Origin: a virus
DNA: 40,538 nt
IMG/VR virus record: IMGVR_UViG_3300043353_000047
Span: 1 to 40,538 of that record
Direction: 5' to 3' (one strand)
Shown here: in pieces, positions 1,404-18,272 of the stretch
How the letters are laid out: each line of letters begins with the position of its first letter
Numbering within the stretch: the stretch's first letter is position 1
Notes under the pieces: model-generated
Database searches by the model: none
What the model was told of the DNA's origin: nothing
What the model saw: only the letters and a program-made list of their open reading frames with translations
Position numbers and translations under genes: made by a program

Positions 1404-1706
1404 TTACTCCCCGTTGAGCTCGAGGAGCTTGCGTTTGAAGAAGCGTTGCCGTTCTCGCAACTGCTTGGCGTCGTCGAGCGCGTCGGGCGGCGGCAAAAAG
1501 AACTCATTGGGCATGACGTTGAGCGCTTGCATGACCCGTAGCTGGAGATCGAACGTCATGCCGGTTTCGCCGTTTTCGTAGCGGCTTATCAGGCTTTTCG
1601 CCGTGCCGACGGCTTTGCCCAAATCCTCCTGCCGCAGGCCACGCTTGAGCCGCCACTCGCGCATGTAGTGAAGGGGCCGGCGCCGGGGCGAATCGTGAGT
1701 TTCCAT
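1404..1706 (-). CDS. XRE-family phage repressor
   Basis: 100-aa regulator with a Cro/CI-type helix-turn-helix at residues 16-68 (REWRLKRGLRQEDLGKAVG, then LISRYENG), followed by a Pro-hinge and a basic C-terminal helix. It has no LexA-like peptidase domain, so inactivation by RecA-driven self-cleavage is unlikely. The ATG at 1706 is chosen over the longer frame because a promoter ends exactly there (TTGACA, 18-bp spacer, TATGTT), putting the predicted transcription start on the A of the ATG. Lambda CI is also made from a leaderless message in lysogens. Divergence from another HTH gene and the lone minus orientation fit an immunity repressor. Its promoter spacer resembles the operators of the 9.5-12.4 kb island (inference: same ligand). 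Confidence 0.8.
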   Translation of the reverse strand: METHDSPRRRPLHYMREWRLKRGLRQEDLGKAVGTAKSLISRYENGETGMTFDLQLRVMQALNVMPNEFFLPPPDALDDAKQLRERQRFFKRKLLELNGE

Positions 1707-1712
1707 AACTGC

Positions 1713-1742
1713 AACATAGGGCGCACAAATGGCCGATGTCAA
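1713..1742 (-). promoter_or_regulatory. Repressor promoter with embedded operator-like site
   Basis: On minus, TTGACA (1742-1737) is separated by 18 bp from TATGTT (1718-1713), and the start codon follows after six bases. The spacer reads CGGCCATTTGTGCGCC near the -35, close to the CGGCCATTGTG of the promoter at 12343-12372, which has the same 18-bp spacing. The right half-site TGGCC is intact; the left half is degenerate. This suggests autoregulation. Confidence 0.6.
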
Positions 1743-1750
1743 ACACAACA

Positions 1751-8504: not shown

Positions 8505-8667
8505 GCCACCCCCGCCCGTTAGGAATGACAATCCCGTCGATTTCGCAGGCCAAATCGGGATCGTCGACCAATCTTCTGATTGCCTCTGCCAGCTGCGCGT
8601 TCTGCCGTCGCCGGATGGCCGGGACGATCCGCAGAAGCCGAACCGTCCTGCGACGCAGCCGGATCAC
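8473..8667 (-). CDS. Small basic protein
   Basis: 64 aa from a GTG at 8667 that overlaps the stop of the HTH gene (GTGA). The N-terminus is very basic (MIRLRRRTVRLLRIVPAIRRR), and the C-terminus is acidic then Pro/Arg-rich. The end overlaps the next gene by 32 bases. Support comes from the coupling pattern shared by the neighbours; nothing in the protein is recognisable, and the frame could be chance. Confidence 0.4.
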   Translation of the reverse strand: MIRLRRRTVRLLRIVPAIRRRQNAQLAEAIRRLVDDPDLACEIDGIVIPNGRGWHERPLYPRRP

Positions 8668-8879
8668 GACTTGATCCCAAGCTCGCGCCGGACCGTCGGA
8701 TGCTTGAGGGCGATGCGCACGAGCAGCGCGACGACGTCGGGGATTTGGTGCGGGCGCCCGTTGCGCTCGCCTTGCTCCCATCCGCCGATTGCGCGCGCGC
8801 TCACCTGGAACGCCTTGGCGAACTCGGTTTGCGTCAGGCCGAGGGCGAGGCGCGCGGCCTTGAGCTCCTCGGGGTTCAC
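8664..8879 (-). CDS. XRE-family helix-turn-helix protein
   Basis: 71 aa, almost entirely a Cro/CI-type HTH: ELKAARLALGLTQTEFAKAF, VSARAIGGWEQGERN and IPDVVALLVRIA. The insertion in the recognition region (GERNGRPHQIPD) is seen in some phage antitoxin-like HTH proteins. It lies in the middle of a coupled run and has no promoter of its own, so it probably regulates elsewhere or acts late. No toxin-like partner is visible beside it. Confidence 0.8.
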   Translation of the reverse strand: MNPEELKAARLALGLTQTEFAKAFQVSARAIGGWEQGERNGRPHQIPDVVALLVRIALKHPTVRRELGIKS

Positions 8880-9103
8880 TTCGCCTCCTCGAGGCCGTCG
8901 ATACGTTCGCGCAATCGGCGAACGTCGTGGCGTAGCGCCGCTATGCCGCGTTCGAGCCGCAGCGACGTCATGACTACGACGTCGACTTGTTCGCGCATCG
9001 ACTGTTGATCTTCGTGCACGTCGGCGACACGCTGACTTAGCGTCGCCAATTGGGCTTGGATCGCAATCAGCGTGCGCAAAGTGGCGTTTTCGGGCTCACT
9101 CAT
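8876..9103 (-). CDS. Coiled-coil protein
   Basis: 75 aa, nearly all heptad-like: LRTLIAIQAQLATLSQRVAD, then REQVDVVVM and RLERGIAALRHDVRRLRERI. There is no membrane segment and no signal. Size and pattern resemble small phage coiled-coil proteins found near lysis or accessory genes. It overlaps both neighbours by four bases. Function unknown. Confidence 0.6.
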   Translation of the reverse strand: MSEPENATLRTLIAIQAQLATLSQRVADVHEDQQSMREQVDVVVMTSLRLERGIAALRHDVRRLRERIDGLEEAK

Positions 9104-9306
9104 GCCACCTCGCTGGCGAAACGAAGAATGGCCTCACTAAAGCCCTCGCCGGGCGCACGGGCGGCCCGCAGGCGATTGAGGGTCACTTTGTCCAGCCAAA
9201 GGTAAAAGCCGCCCTTGGGGCTTGGCAGGGCTTCCAAACGCCTATCGGGCGGGACGCCAGCCGCGAGCGCGGCATAGGCGCGGGCCGAAATTTCAATGCG
9301 GATCAC
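9100..9306 (-). CDS. Small protein of unknown function
   Basis: 68 aa. The start is the GTG at 9306, overlapping the TGA of the upstream gene by four bases; the longer frame to 9321 would begin inside that gene without a ribosome site. The protein opens with a beta-like MIRIEISARAYAALAAG and has a central LPSPKGGFYLWLDKVTLNRL. The opening is one I have seen in small phage proteins; no function is known. Confidence 0.6.
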   Translation of the reverse strand: MIRIEISARAYAALAAGVPPDRRLEALPSPKGGFYLWLDKVTLNRLRAARAPGEGFSEAILRFASEVA

Positions 9307-9500
9307 GAGTGAAAGAACCAAAAGCGCCCAAGCGCCACGCCAACGCCGACGGCCGCCGCGAGCGCGAGGACGAGCTGGACGACGAATTTGCGGTTTTCCA
9401 TGCGGATTTCTTGCCGCAGCCGTTCGATTTGAATGGTCATAAGATCAATCCTCAACTGACGTTCTTCGTCATCGGGCGCCATCGGCGGAAATATGGGCAT
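9303..9500 (-). CDS. Small coiled-coil membrane protein
   Basis: 65 aa. A charged coiled coil (EERQLRIDLMTIQIERLRQE) is followed by one membrane segment at about 40-60 (VVQLVLALAAAVGVGVALG) and a short FWFFHS end. The likely topology is N-terminus inside. Promoter not evident. It is the first gene of the coupled run reading left, and its design (coil plus one membrane helix) is shared with the protein at 40272-40529. Confidence 0.6.
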   Translation of the reverse strand: MPIFPPMAPDDEERQLRIDLMTIQIERLRQEIRMENRKFVVQLVLALAAAVGVGVALGRFWFFHS

Positions 9501-9515
9501 TGTGACTAGCTGTTG

Positions 9516-9959
9516 TCAACGCCGCAACCGCCGGCCGCGCTTGGCCTTCGCCAGATCGTCCTTGCTCGCAATGCCCCACGGCATGGAATCATAGCCGGGC
9601 AGGGTTTCGGGATAGCCGGCCTTGATCGCGAGATAGATTTGCCGGGCTTGCGAGGCCTCGTAGCCGTCATGCTCGCCCGTCTGGTAATCGTAGCAATCGG
9701 CGATTTTGGCCACCGCCTCGGGCCGCACGCGCCTCGGTTTGAAGCGATAGGCCTCGACGGCCTTGAGTTCGGGGAATTGGGCCTCGAGCTCGTCACGCGG
9801 GATATGTCGATAGCGATAGGTGACGCTGGCGATATTCTCGCGCCACAAGACGCGGCCGAGCTCGTTAAAATCGACCAGGCCATGGCCGGCCGGCTTAAGC
9901 TTGGCGAGCGCGGTCACCAGGATATCGATATCGGTTTTCGAGACGACAAAAGCGGACAT
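9516..9959 (-). CDS. Conserved protein of the operator-controlled island
   Basis: 147 aa. The start is set at the ATG at 9959 by an AAAGGAA ribosome site; the longer frame is discarded. The N-terminus SAFVVSKTDIDILVTALAKL and the central ELGRVLWRENIASVTYRYRH resemble a conserved protein I have seen in plasmids and phages of Alphaproteobacteria, often near antirestriction genes, but without a function. The C-terminus is very basic (KAKRGRRLRR). An operator palindrome lies 22-37 bases upstream. Role in anti-defence is an inference from its island. Confidence 0.7.
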   Translation of the reverse strand: MSAFVVSKTDIDILVTALAKLKPAGHGLVDFNELGRVLWRENIASVTYRYRHIPRDELEAQFPELKAVEAYRFKPRRVRPEAVAKIADCYDYQTGEHDGYEASQARQIYLAIKAGYPETLPGYDSMPWGIASKDDLAKAKRGRRLRR

Positions 9960-9980: not shown

Positions 9981-9996
9981 TAGCCATGATGGCCGG
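9981..9996 (-). promoter_or_regulatory. Island operator, site 1
   Basis: GCCAT-G-ATGGC (9983-9993) is a perfect inverted repeat within TAGCCATGATGGCCGG, directly upstream of the ribosome site of the 9516-9959 gene. It matches the TGGCCAyxxTGGCCA family found at six further places up to 12365. A GGGC...GCCC hairpin with a T5 loop lies about 14 bases further upstream. Confidence 0.65.
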
Positions 9997-10062
9997 TTGC
10001 CGGGCAAAAAGCGCCCGTTCATGGCCGCCAGCTTTGTCGCCGACGGCCATGCGCTGGCGTTT

Positions 10063-10131
10063 TCAGATGCGGCCGCTGGCGACCATGTAGAGGGCGAAGA
10101 AAAGGGCGATCGCGGTCATGAGGCCGGGCAT
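10063..10131 (-). CDS. 22-residue membrane micropeptide
   Basis: A short frame, MPGLMTAIALFFALYMVASG plus RI, starts immediately after the TAA of the 10132-10752 gene (TAAATG) and encodes one hydrophobic helix. Tight spacing and a pure membrane segment support it; there is no independent ribosome site, so it would depend on re-initiation. It could be chance. Confidence 0.35.
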   Translation of the reverse strand: MPGLMTAIALFFALYMVASGRI

Positions 10132-10752
10132 TTAGGCGGCCTCCAAAACGCGTTTGCGGGGGCGCCTGGCGGCCTTGATCGGCATGGCCTGGCCATTGGC
10201 CGGATTGAGGCGCTTGACGGGCGCCACGGGGCGGCCGGCGAGACGCATGGCCTTTTGCGCCATCGCTTGCGCATAGGCCTGCTCGATTGTGAGGCCTAAA
10301 GAGCCGACCAGGTTAGACTTCGCCTTGCCGTCGGCCCACTCGCGGCGATCGCGGCCGGCGGCCGCCGCAAATTCCGCGCGGCATTTCGCCGCATAATCCG
10401 GCATTGTGTATTTGAGCACGATAGCCGGCGGCCGCTTGACCGAATTGAGGCCTTTGATCCAATCGCCGACGGCGGCGCCATGGGCGCGCTTTTCATCCGG
10501 GCTGAGCTTGCGGCCGCGTGCCGTCGTGCGCCATTTTTCGACGGGCGCCGACGCGGTTTTGGGATAGACCGGGCCCCATGCGGCCGGTTCGGGTTTGCCT
10601 TGCAAGTCGGCGAAATCAAACGGCCTGGCCACATATTCGGCGGCGATTGTGGAGGCCTTTACGATTGTGCGGCATGACGCGCGCGCAATGATCGCGGCCG
10701 CCTCGGCGCCTTGGTAAAACGTGGTTACTCTTGATTGCCAGATATCGAACAT
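10132..10752 (-). CDS. Unknown island protein with basic C-terminus
   Basis: 206 aa from the ATG at 10752, with GAGG six bases upstream. The N-terminus is MFDIWQSRVTTFYQGAEAAA, and an alpha-helical Ala-rich middle region follows. The C-terminal 40 residues are strongly basic and Pro-rich (RLAGRPVAPVKRL, PIKAARRPRKRVLEAA), suggesting nucleic-acid binding. No family recognised. Two operator palindromes and a TTGACA promoter lie directly upstream, so it is probably expressed early and repressed in lysogeny. Confidence 0.65.
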   Translation of the reverse strand: MFDIWQSRVTTFYQGAEAAAIIARASCRTIVKASTIAAEYVARPFDFADLQGKPEPAAWGPVYPKTASAPVEKWRTTARGRKLSPDEKRAHGAAVGDWIKGLNSVKRPPAIVLKYTMPDYAAKCRAEFAAAAGRDRREWADGKAKSNLVGSLGLTIEQAYAQAMAQKAMRLAGRPVAPVKRLNPANGQAMPIKAARRPRKRVLEAA

Positions 10753-10765
10753 GACGCGCCTCAAT

Positions 10766-10821
10766 TGGCCACGATGGCCGGTTGCAAGTTATGCATATTG
10801 GCCACAATGGCCAGTTGTCAA
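10766..10821 (-). promoter_or_regulatory. Promoter with two operators
   Basis: On minus, TTGACA (10821-10816), an 18-bp spacer and TATGCA (10797-10792) form a promoter for the 10132-10752 gene. The spacer contains a perfect 15-bp palindrome, TGGCCA-CAA-TGGCCA (10799-10813). A second site, GGCCA-CGA-TGGCC (10767-10779), covers about +6 to +18 of the predicted transcript. The same geometry recurs at 12317-12372. Confidence 0.75.
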
Positions 10822-10840
10822 GCGCAAGCGCTCGCATAAA

Positions 10841-10863
10841 CCGGCCGGAATTGAACCGGCCGG
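10841..10863 (-). terminator. Strong GC hairpin after ardC
   Basis: CCGGCCGG (10841-10848) and CCGGCCGG (10856-10863) with a seven-base loop, 18 bases beyond the ArdC stop. An outer GCGCAAG/CTTGCGC pair extends the stem. On minus only TTTAT follows, so it is a weak intrinsic terminator or an mRNA-end stabiliser that also insulates the next promoter. Confidence 0.45.
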
Positions 10864-10880
10864 CTTAAACTTGCGCTCGA

Positions 10881-11774
10881 TTAGGCAGCCTCGAGCATGT
10901 CCTCGACGAGCTCGTCGACGGGCGCCGCAATCGCCGCCTCGCGCATCAACTCGACGGCGCGCGACGCGGCCGCAGCTGCAGCGACGATGACCTTTTCATG
11001 TTCCGTGAGGAGCTTGATCCAAGTGGCGATATAATCAGCGTCGACGCCGTCATTATCGAAACCAAACTCGCCGCACAAAAACGCGCTTGTGAGTTCGGCC
11101 ACGAGCTCCTCGACGGCGTAAGCGCGATCGCCGAAGCGCTTGCCAAACGTGCGCGCCAGCCGCTTGTCGGCGCCCGTCCAATGCCCGAGCTCATGGAACG
11201 CCGTGCCATAATAGAGCGAAGCGCTTTTGAACGTCGCAAACGCGGGCATGTTCACAAAGTCGCCAACGGGCGAATAATAGGCGCGCGCCTCACCATGCTT
11301 GACGGTTGCGCCAGTCGACGCAATGAAGGCCTCGGCGATATCGTCGCGCGCGTTTGGATTGGTGGCGCGCGCTTCGCTCACCGCGTCTGTGACTTTCGCC
11401 GGCAAATTGTCGCATTGCGCGATGTTGAAAACGGTATAGGCCTTAAGGAACGGAATGGCGCGCCGCTCGCCGTCGTCATCTGTTCGAATGACTTTCGACA
11501 CATAGATAACGGTTTCGCCCTTCTCGCCCTTGCGCACGTTTCCGCCAAGCTCAAGCGCTTGTTTGAACGTCAACCACAAGGGCGCCTGAAATCCGCTTTC
11601 TTGCGCGCGCGACCAGAGCAAAAGCACGTTGGCGCCTGAATAGGCGCGTTGCGTGAGGGCGTTGCGCGGCATGACGCCGAATCCTTTGCCCGACCACGGT
11701 TGACGCCAAGGAACAACGCCAGCCTTGAGGCGCGCGATAATCCGATCGGTAATTTCTTTGTGTAGGTTTCGCAT
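10881..11774 (-). CDS. ardC: ArdC-type antirestriction protein
   Basis: 297 aa from the ATG at 11774, with GGAG eight bases upstream. ArdC proteins bind single-stranded DNA through the N-terminal domain (MRNLHKEITDRIIARL, VPWRQPW, RNALTQRAYSGANVLLL) and carry a C-terminal zincin-type metallopeptidase-like domain. Here the motif is FHELGHWTGAD with HELGH at 194-198 and a downstream VEELVAEL that supplies the third ligand. They protect incoming DNA against host restriction. All expected motifs are present and the length is normal. An exact 17-bp operator lies 17 bases upstream of the start, so expression should be off in a lysogen and on after entry. Confidence 0.93.
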   Translation of the reverse strand: MRNLHKEITDRIIARLKAGVVPWRQPWSGKGFGVMPRNALTQRAYSGANVLLLWSRAQESGFQAPLWLTFKQALELGGNVRKGEKGETVIYVSKVIRTDDDGERRAIPFLKAYTVFNIAQCDNLPAKVTDAVSEARATNPNARDDIAEAFIASTGATVKHGEARAYYSPVGDFVNMPAFATFKSASLYYGTAFHELGHWTGADKRLARTFGKRFGDRAYAVEELVAELTSAFLCGEFGFDNDGVDADYIATWIKLLTEHEKVIVAAAAAASRAVELMREAAIAAPVDELVEDMLEAA

Positions 11775-11790
11775 GCTGGTTACTCCATAA

Positions 11791-11807
11791 CTAGCCATTG
11801 TGGCTAG
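11791..11807 (-). promoter_or_regulatory. Island operator, ardC site
   Basis: CTAGCCA-TTG-TGGCTAG is a perfect 17-bp inverted repeat between the ardC ribosome site and a TATGCC hexamer (11819-11814 on minus). The flank to the right, TAGGCGCCCG...CGATTGC, aligns base by base with the flank of the 12015 operator, so the two leaders share ancestry. Confidence 0.7.
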
Positions 11808-11830
11808 GGTTAGGGCATAGGCGCCCGTCC

Positions 11831-11855
11831 TAAACGACCGATTGCCGATCGTTTA
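11831..11855. repeat. Inverted repeat upstream of ardC
   Basis: TAAACGACCG and CGATCGTTTA flank ATTGC, with one mismatch in ten pairs. It lies between the 44-aa gene and ardC, without a T-run on either strand. It could end the short message or bind a regulator. Confidence 0.4.
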
Positions 11856-11865
11856 GAGCTCGCGT

Positions 11866-12000
11866 CTAATTAAGGATTTCGGCCAGCTGCAGAAGGCGAA
11901 TGAGCTTGCGGGCCCATTCGGCCGCCTCCGCATTCTTTCCGCAGCATTTGAAGGCGATCGCCTTCGCCAAGGCTTGCGCGCAAGCGCTTCGATCGATCAT
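11866..12000 (-). CDS. 44-aa microprotein of the island
   Basis: Begins MIDRSACAQALAKAIAFKCC, followed by a helical, basic-to-hydrophobic second half ending LLQLAEILN. An AAAGG ribosome site lies eight bases before the ATG and a perfect operator (12015-12029) sits directly upstream, so it has the same control design as its larger neighbours. The CC pair with a further Cys at position 7 could bind a metal. Function unknown; a small anti-defence inhibitor is a reasonable guess from context only. Confidence 0.6.
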   Translation of the reverse strand: MIDRSACAQALAKAIAFKCCGKNAEAAEWARKLIRLLQLAEILN

Positions 12001-12014
12001 GGTGTTAACCTTTC

Positions 12015-12029
12015 TGGCCATTGTGGCCA
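12015..12029 (-). promoter_or_regulatory. Island operator, 44-aa gene site
   Basis: TGGCCA-TTG-TGGCCA, a perfect 15-bp palindrome just upstream of the ribosome site. A GAGCG-TAGG-CGCTC hairpin (12037-12050) lies further upstream, in the same relative place as GC hairpins near the other three leaders. Confidence 0.7.
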
Positions 12030-12099
12030 CTATCCGAGCGTAGGCGCTCGCCTTATGCGGCCGATTGCGCGGCCGCGAGCATGTCGTCGACGAGCGGGT

Positions 12100-12297
12100 T
12101 TACTTCGCAACAATAACGGCGCTGAAATCGCGCGGGCCGATTGCGTCATCTTCATGTGAGGCCGTGACAAACGCGCGCGCATCGTCGACGGTTTTGAAGG
12201 CCTTGAACGATGCGCCATCGTTGAAACGGACGACGCGTCCCTCGGAAAGGGCCTTCGCCCAATTGGATTTAGCTATCCGTGCTTCCATCTTTGTCAT
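12100..12297 (-). CDS. 65-aa protein of the island, unknown function
   Basis: Starts at the ATG at 12297, which has AGGAG nine bases upstream; the longer frame to 12387 would run through the promoter and is rejected. The protein reads MTKMEARIAKSNWAKAL, then GRVVRFNDGASFKAFKTVDDA, with an FSAVIVAK end. It is compact and mixed alpha/beta. No family recognised. It has the best promoter of the island (TTGACA, 18 bp, TATACC) and two operators, so it is probably strongly expressed on entry. Confidence 0.65.
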   Translation of the reverse strand: MTKMEARIAKSNWAKALSEGRVVRFNDGASFKAFKTVDDARAFVTASHEDDAIGPRDFSAVIVAK

Positions 12298-12316
12298 TTC
12301 AGCTGCTCCTATCAAC

Positions 12317-12372
12317 TGGCCACAATGGCTAGTAACGAGGTTGGTATATGTGGACACAATGGCCGGTGTCAA
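12317..12372 (-). promoter_or_regulatory. Promoter with two operators
   Basis: On minus, TTGACA (12372-12367), an 18-bp spacer and TATACC (12348-12343). One site, TGGACA-CAA-TGGCCG (12351-12365), fills the spacer; a second, TGGCCA-CAA-TGGCTA (12317-12331), covers about +6 to +20. Operator centres are 34 bp apart, against 33 bp at 10766-10821. Confidence 0.75.
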
Positions 12373-12690: not shown

Positions 12691-12952
12691 CCGCCGCTCA
12701 CGCGCCAGCCCTGGCCTTTTTCGCACGTCTCATTGCGCATCAAGCTCTAGCAATGAGCGCTGACTTGTCACGCCGCCAACATTCCAATCGCTCGCCCTGC
12801 AATCAACCACGCCGCAATCCGCGCCGCTCAACCCAACCACAATCCAAACGCCAGCACGGGAGGAAACGGCGCCGCGCCTATAAAACGCGCGGGCCACTAA
12901 GTACCGCGCCTTGCATGGTGATATGCGCAATGTGCTAGTTGTTCTCATGTGT

Positions 12953-12973
12953 TACGTGATTATAGATCACGTA
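12953..12973. repeat. Perfect inverted repeat
   Basis: TACGTGAT (12953-12960), loop TATAG, ATCACGTA (12966-12973). It lies in the AT-rich part of the control region and has no T-run, so it looks like a protein-binding or structural site rather than a terminator. Confidence 0.65.
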
Positions 12974-13221
12974 GTTTGAGACGCTAACGCATTGATATCA
13001 TTGATGATTGCATCATGACGTCATCATCCATGTGTGTGTCATGTGGACACGTGGAAGCGAAGCACGGCCTCGTCGTTTTCAGCCAGAAAAGGTTTTGGCC
13101 CCCCACTCCCCGCCCTCGACCGGAACCGTTGCCGGGGGCCCCACCCCGTTCGCAACGCGCCTCCATAATCCACATACCCCCGTCGTGTAGTATGCAGGAT
13201 TTGCAATTGGCGGGGGCGTGT

Positions 13222-17618: not shown

Positions 17619-18065
17619 TTACTTGGGAGTGGCCCCGCCAACCGTGACGGTCCATTCCGCCTTGGTCGGGTTCCAAACCGCCACGACGTATTCGTTGACG
17701 ATTTCGTCAGGCGGGGGAGGAAGCGTCTCACCTTCCGGCGGAACCCAAGGATGCGTCGGGACGCCGGGCATGCCGGGGAGCCCCTGATCGGGATAAGGCA
17801 CGTACCCATGATCGGGGCGGGCGCCACCTCCGCCGGGAAGCCCCTGGTCGGGATAGCCCGGAATATAGATCGGGTGGCTCGGGTTGCCCGTGATGTAGAT
17901 CGGATGCTGCGGCGAGCCAGGCGAGCCAGGAGGCGCGCCGGGGATCACAATCGGATGCGACGGGGCGGGGCCGCCGCCCGCCGGCGGTTGCGGCTGCGGC
18001 AAGCCTTGGTCGGGATAGTTGCCGTTGCCGGTCAACGGGGTAATCAAAGCCAAATACGGTTGCAT
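17619..18065 (-). CDS. YPDQGLP-repeat proline-rich protein
   Basis: 148 aa from an ATG with AGGAGGA upstream. After MQPYLALITPL it consists of repeats: YPDQGLP three times, and HPIYI or HPIVI three times separated by Gly/Pro linkers. A compact end follows (VNEYVVAVWNPTKAEWTVTV). I recall such YPDQGLP proteins in alphaproteobacterial phages without known function; the repeats could be a stalk or a ligand array. Transcribed away from the late operon from a 207-base divergent region and closed by its own terminator. Confidence 0.65.
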   Translation of the reverse strand: MQPYLALITPLTGNGNYPDQGLPQPQPPAGGGPAPSHPIVIPGAPPGSPGSPQHPIYITGNPSHPIYIPGYPDQGLPGGGGARPDHGYVPYPDQGLPGMPGVPTHPWVPPEGETLPPPPDEIVNEYVVAVWNPTKAEWTVTVGGATPK

Positions 18066-18145
18066 GATTTCCTCCTTTGGGCCTTTTCGGGAAGGCGGAA
18101 TCAGCCTTGCACGCGGCCACGACGCGGACAAGACATTGCTGCGAT

Positions 18146-18174
18146 TTGATCTTTGAACGATATCAGCCTCTAAT
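18146..18174 (+). promoter_or_regulatory. Promoter of the late operon
   Basis: TTGATC (18146-18151), 17-bp spacer, TCTAAT (18169-18174; five of six matches to TATAAT). It would start transcription near 18181, about 90 bases before the portal gene. Confidence 0.55.
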
Positions 18175-18272
18175 CCTCGAAGCCTCATGGGACGCGTGAA
18201 GGCCAGTTCTCGCTTGGTTCCTGATCTGGACGCGCAGCCGCAATCGGGGCCGTTTTTTAGGACGAGAAGTCA

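Follow-up and report, generated by a model that had tools for sequence, protein, structure and literature searches.

Aca HTH repressors (Aca1-10) control acr-aca operons (PMC9410906; PMC9410881; PMC8434428). In these operons, a downstream gene of the cluster encodes a small HTH protein with a single domain, an inverted repeat sits inside one strong -35/-10 promoter and is often joined by another copy upstream or downstream, and the logic is that of autorepression. In the establishment regulon (EGeRS2) of the Bacillus plasmid p576, a single repressor, Reg, serves several promoters of a counter-defence regulon that includes ardC (PMC8708921). Reg is a ribbon-helix-helix protein whose operators consist of directly repeated heptamers ahead of the -35 box; they lie next to the promoter, with another just past the transcription start at two promoters, and the gene content behind the conserved regulatory sequence is mosaic. 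In the archaeal virus SIRV2, an early/anti-defence regulon has one regulatory sequence before many small early genes, TATA/BRE promoters, and a putative Aca, the winged HTH protein Aca8, as shared repressor (PMC11065993). The stoperators of mycobacteriophages are asymmetric, genome-wide copies of the site of a monomeric immunity repressor that could stop elongation, with site and repressor diverging between phages (PMC6550527; PMC9283540). The antitoxins MqsA and HigA2 repress their own operons.

We analysed the phage IMGVR_UViG_3300043353_000047, a linear virus record of 40.5 kb (the window, i.e., the whole stretch of DNA under study), in which one palindrome recurs across a cluster of leftward genes that ends in the gene of a 71-aa HTH protein. 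This locus is closest in logic to the acr-aca operons and to p576 Reg/ardC, followed by the SIRV2 Aca8 regulon. It shares with acr-aca operons the position and kind of the HTH gene, the placement of the inverted repeats and a related fold (Aca2, Aca10, Aca1), as well as, by our reading, autorepression. Unlike them, it has several promoters and cistrons with operator copies in the leaders of inner cistrons, and ArdC in place of a recognised acr gene. As with p576 Reg, a single repressor would serve several promoters of a counter-defence regulon with ardC, operators next to and just past the promoter, and mosaic gene content, but here the protein is of the HTH_3 type and the sites are palindromes in the spacer. 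SIRV2 likewise has a shared sequence before small genes and a putative Aca, but lacks palindromes whose class tracks a recognition helix. The many copies of one site and their divergence between phages recall stoperators, whereas here they are palindromes within 3 kb and the proposed regulator is not the lysogeny repressor. In the literature searched, the combination of a small HTH protein, class-switching palindromes, and promoter and leader copies over several cistrons is not described.

The window encodes portal, terminase, scaffold and head genes, and relatives were found by a portal protein search and also by an HTH alignment search. All members of the phage group seen here come from metagenomes, and the group is probably temperate, since five related records carry a tyrosine integrase, which is missing from the window fragment. 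Operators were compared in seven phages in total, i.e., the window, G003, G009, L067, G008, G017 and G020; the operator is conserved in four of these and has a class-matched replacement in the other three. Strict promoter-operator scans of viral and genome collections yielded, besides one site that is probably due to chance, a gene of Oxalobacter and a prophage of Bifidobacterium. At two promoters of this unrelated Bifidobacterium cuniculi prophage (NZ_JGYV01000001.1; L011 1716 and 2394, also L008 375 and 1053), the same kind of palindrome occupies the same place, as TTGACACG-TGGCC(A/G)CTGTGGCCA-C-TAT, and it probably arose independently.

The operator of the window is a 15-bp palindrome, TGGCCA-N3-TGGCCA. 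The seven copies reported in an earlier note on this DNA are present within one base of the positions given there, all on the minus strand, at 12351-12365 (CGGCCATTGTGTCCA; 15.5 bits), 12317-12331 (23.3 bits), 12015-12029 (TGGCCACAATGGCCA; 25.1 bits), 11792-11806 (CTAGCCACAATGGCTAG; 21.4 bits), 10799-10813 (TGGCCATTGTGGCCA; 25.1 bits), 10766-10780 (15.7 bits) and 9981-9995 (CGGCCATCATGGCTA; 15.2 bits). These scores come from a weight-matrix scan with a matrix trained only on 15 sites from three other phages; the top scores in the window were exactly the seven sites (15.2-25.1 bits). At a threshold of at least 12 bits there were seven matches versus 0.2 expected, and at 10 bits or more nine matches versus 0.55 expected from dinucleotide shuffles. 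All nine fell within 9.4-12.4 kb; coding sequence elsewhere therefore does not carry the motif at a like frequency, which the note had named as a refuting outcome, and the scan placed no operator at replication or structural genes of the window. Similarly, the pattern TGGCCAYNRTGGCCA with up to three mismatches gave 17 matches in the window versus 6.3 +/- 2.4 in dinucleotide shuffles, a number reached in 0 of 100 shuffles. The seven sites are genuine and far above chance. The claim that they lie just upstream of minus-strand genes also held, but the gene starts needed correcting: the mechanical ORF starts (12387, 12030, 10764, 10022) are too far upstream, and each of the likely start codons (12297, 12000, 11774, 10752, 9959) has a site 13-21 nt before it.

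On the transcribed strand, the operators are of two kinds. Promoter sites, across the seven phages, occupy the whole spacer of 17-19 bp that separates a perfect TTGACA from the -10 box. In the window, the sites at 12351 and 10799 fill the 18-bp spacers, ahead of TAT-type -10 boxes, of minus-strand promoters at 12343-12372 (TTGACA 12367-12372, TATACC 12343-12348) and 10792-10821 (TTGACA 10816-10821, TATGCA 10792-10797). A second site lies downstream of the promoter site in all seven phages, and nine of ten such pairs are exactly 34 bp apart, 12351/12317 among them; the tenth, 10799/10766 in the window, is 33 bp apart. Judged from the position of the -10 box, the downstream copy would fall in the first transcribed bases, at about +6 to +20. 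Leader sites adjoin the Shine-Dalgarno sequence in the window, that at 12317 standing directly before it, and in relatives most precede the start codon by 10-21 nt and one by 35 nt. The leader sites before ardC (11792) and before the start codon at 12000 (12015) have no recognisable promoter, and their role is a guess; the former occupies the same place before ardC of G003. This promoter-plus-leader layout is common to the six other phages, and the segment with the HTH regulator gene is immediately preceded, in L067 and G020, by a TTGACA promoter that contains an operator. A long GC-rich inverted repeat, CTAAACGATCGgcaatCGGTCGTTTAG, which lies just before the ardC operator (window 11805-11862, L066 935-985) and is conserved in G003, is possibly a processing or termination hairpin.

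The leftward genes between 8.6 and 12.4 kb, all on the minus strand, comprise ardC, several genes without an assigned function and, at the distal end, the HTH gene. The ArdC anti-restriction protein (10881-11774) has ArdcN and MPTase-PolyVal domains (Pfam 1.8e-41 and 1.4e-43; phrog_7245 6e-83). It is preceded by a 65-aa gene (12100-12297), which is an open frame with a Shine-Dalgarno sequence and no family match, and by a 44-aa ORF (11866-12000) downstream of an operator and Shine-Dalgarno. Beyond ardC lie a 206-aa gene (10132-10752) with no family match and with homologues behind an operator in G003, L067, G008 and G017, a 147-aa gene (9516-9959) with homologues in G009, L067, G008 and G017, and a 68-aa gene (9100-9306) that adjoins the HTH gene on its upstream side in every one of these phages. 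When an association with anti-CRISPRs was examined, ArdC was the only counter-defence gene recognised and the small genes stayed unassigned. ArdC lends the label of a putative counter-defence island, into which the genes without assigned function may fall, and its identification bears out the suggestion that one operator is dispersed as a regulon over an island with an anti-restriction gene. No viral relatives came up in protein searches that used the 210-aa, 148-aa and 66-aa island genes as queries, nor did scanning viral records with the gene next to the HTH gene add a phage; a DNA search of known phages returned short ArdC matches only, and a resolvase search was negative.

Three further features were noted in and around the island. 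The first gene behind the operator pair encodes a GP88 family protein in G009 (L069 477-1211; PF17338) and G020 (L071 3684-4400), where the window has the unrelated 65-aa gene, i.e., a cassette-like exchange behind a conserved operator. Beside the island, a conserved AT-rich palindromic stretch, ACGTGATTATAGATCACGT (window 12940-12985, L051 90-120, L025 4640-4680), is possibly an origin or regulator site. A 189-aa open frame (17619-18188, minus), which runs counter to the structural genes, is rich in proline and glycine and contains repeats HPIYIPGYPDQGLPG.

The best candidate for the regulator is the 71-aa HTH_3 protein (8664-8879, minus). Its gene comes last in the leftward cluster of each of the seven phages, and we predict that the protein binds all of the operators. 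Operators of the TGGCCA type (S class) in the window, G003, G009 and L067 go with a recognition helix that starts SxRA. G008 and G017, which have relatives of the same island genes in the same architecture, have the palindrome TAGGCA-N3-TGCCTA or TAGGCA-N3-TGACTA (D class; TAGGCA/TAGTCA arms) and a helix start DxRT. In G020, the one phage of a third class, arms AGGGCA/AGGACA go with AGRT. L067 was discovered after this rule had been formed and fits it, and matrices built with one phage left out at a time tell S phages from D phages. Judged from the protein sequences, shared descent does not explain the match, because the rest of the HTH protein groups the phages differently from the operator class. 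Outside residues 26-44, G008 (D operator) is 77-85% identical to the S-class proteins of the window, G003 and L067, and G009 (S operator) only 62-63%; inside these residues G009 is identical to G003 (100%), and G008 stands at 68%. Neighbour proteins do not follow operator class either: the 9516-9959 protein of G009 shares 87% identity with its G008 counterpart and 48% with that of the window, and the 10132-10752 proteins of L067 and G008 are 83% identical despite different operators. It counts against the proposed regulon that the HTH gene lies 0.6 kb or more downstream, where a single transcript may or may not reach it. Of the two additional matrix matches of at least 10 bits, that at 9698, within a gene, may be due to chance. 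The other (9494-9508, minus; TGGGCATTGTGACTA; TAGTCACAATGCCCA; 10.1 bits) is probably an eighth operator, because a TTGACA box at 9514-9519 precedes it; its arms resemble the D class although the window phage is of the S type, which also counts against the proposed regulon.

An AlphaFold model of the 71-aa protein (mean pLDDT 94.4) has five helices, with the recognition helix at residues 28-36. The closest solved folds are the antitoxins HigA2 and MqsA (Z 10-10.7), Aca2, Aca10 and Aca1; unlike the antitoxins, the protein appears to stand alone, with no toxin partner recognised. Sequence profiles against the PDB gave Aca10 (2.2e-6), Aca3 (2.9e-4) and Aca2 (about 2e-3), and the Pfam family Aca2_YdiL scored 15 bits, below its cut-off of 23.8. 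By predicted fold and gene layout, the protein is Aca-like, with the features of an autorepressor; its membership of a named Aca family is at most putative.

We consider it probable that the sites are operators of a regulon governed, through autorepression, by the 71-aa protein, and we infer dimer binding, repression, early timing and a role for the leader copies as follows. After entry, host RNA polymerase would transcribe the leftward genes from the strong TTGACA promoters, i.e., the 65-aa gene, the 44-aa ORF, ardC, the 206-aa and 147-aa genes and then the segment with the HTH gene. As the 71-aa protein accumulates, a dimer would occupy each palindrome. The position of an operator within a strong promoter's spacer suggests that RNA polymerase is excluded, in the manner of Aca proteins (PMC9410906), and the copy 34 bp downstream would reinforce the block. 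Copies before ardC and other inner cistrons would, on the simplest reading, be transcriptional roadblocks that lower the output of those cistrons. An operator-bearing promoter before the regulator segment, as in L067 and G020, would provide negative feedback and hence a fast, transient pulse of counter-defence proteins. Activation of the MerR type was considered and set aside, since the ordinary spacer length and an HTH_3 protein make repression likelier.

The leader copies might instead act in the mRNA, as hairpins beside the Shine-Dalgarno sequence to which the HTH protein binds so that translation is blocked. Aca2 reportedly binds RNA, leader copies lie 13-21 nt before start codons, the majority of them lacking a promoter, and perfect stems of 6-7 bp can be drawn for several. 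However, the leader copies of G008 and G017 have a G.A mismatch within the stem, the window copies at 12317 and 9981 have mismatches too, and the loop triplet is found in both orientations, as expected of double-stranded DNA sites; we regard this explanation as unlikely. A broader proposal is that the regulon is controlled at two levels, by DNA operators at promoters and by leader copies acting as roadblocks or RNA hairpins, that new counter-defence genes enter as operator-carrying cassettes, and that protein and operator switched specificity together at least twice; taken whole, it is speculative and seems to us doubtful.

The earlier note had pointed to another protein, encoded at 1404-1706 in its account and at 1404-1748 (minus) in ours, as the binder. 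Its CI/Cro-type HTH gene is divergent from a second HTH gene (1814-2155) in the layout of a lysogeny switch, of which it is more likely a part, and its promoter spacer holds a GGCCA half-site, as might be hoped for if the sites were immunity operators. That they are is nevertheless quite improbable, and the protein is probably not the binder: its helix, KSLISRYE, is the same in the window, G009 and G017 though their island operators differ, the best matrix score at its own promoter is -2.5 bits, i.e., no operator, and the sites are limited to the island. The second HTH gene was also rejected as the regulator, since its helix in G009 is nearer to that in G017 than to that in the window and does not follow operator class. 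The divergent pair (1404-2155) lies beside an Erf recombinase gene and is conserved in L005, L006, L007 and G017, and in relatives an integrase lies just beyond it.

A host-encoded regulator exploited by the phage would suit promoters of the host sigma-70 type, but is very improbable given that operator class changes together with a phage-encoded recognition helix and that only two species of the genome collection, of which neither is a likely host, returned the strict promoter-operator pattern. The abundance of GGCC in the window might speak for chance palindromes in GC-rich DNA, but these are refuted by the seven matches against 0.2 expected and by conservation and fixed 34-bp spacing across phages, and their probability is negligible.

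A regulon repressed by the 71-aa protein would make the operator a tag, so that the counter-defence candidates of this phage group would include every gene located behind it; the genes at 10132-10752 and 9516-9959 thereby become testable candidates. The three operator classes with their matching helices amount to a natural series of specificity switches in a minimal HTH repressor. If this reading is true, Aca-like control extends from one promoter to a regulon.
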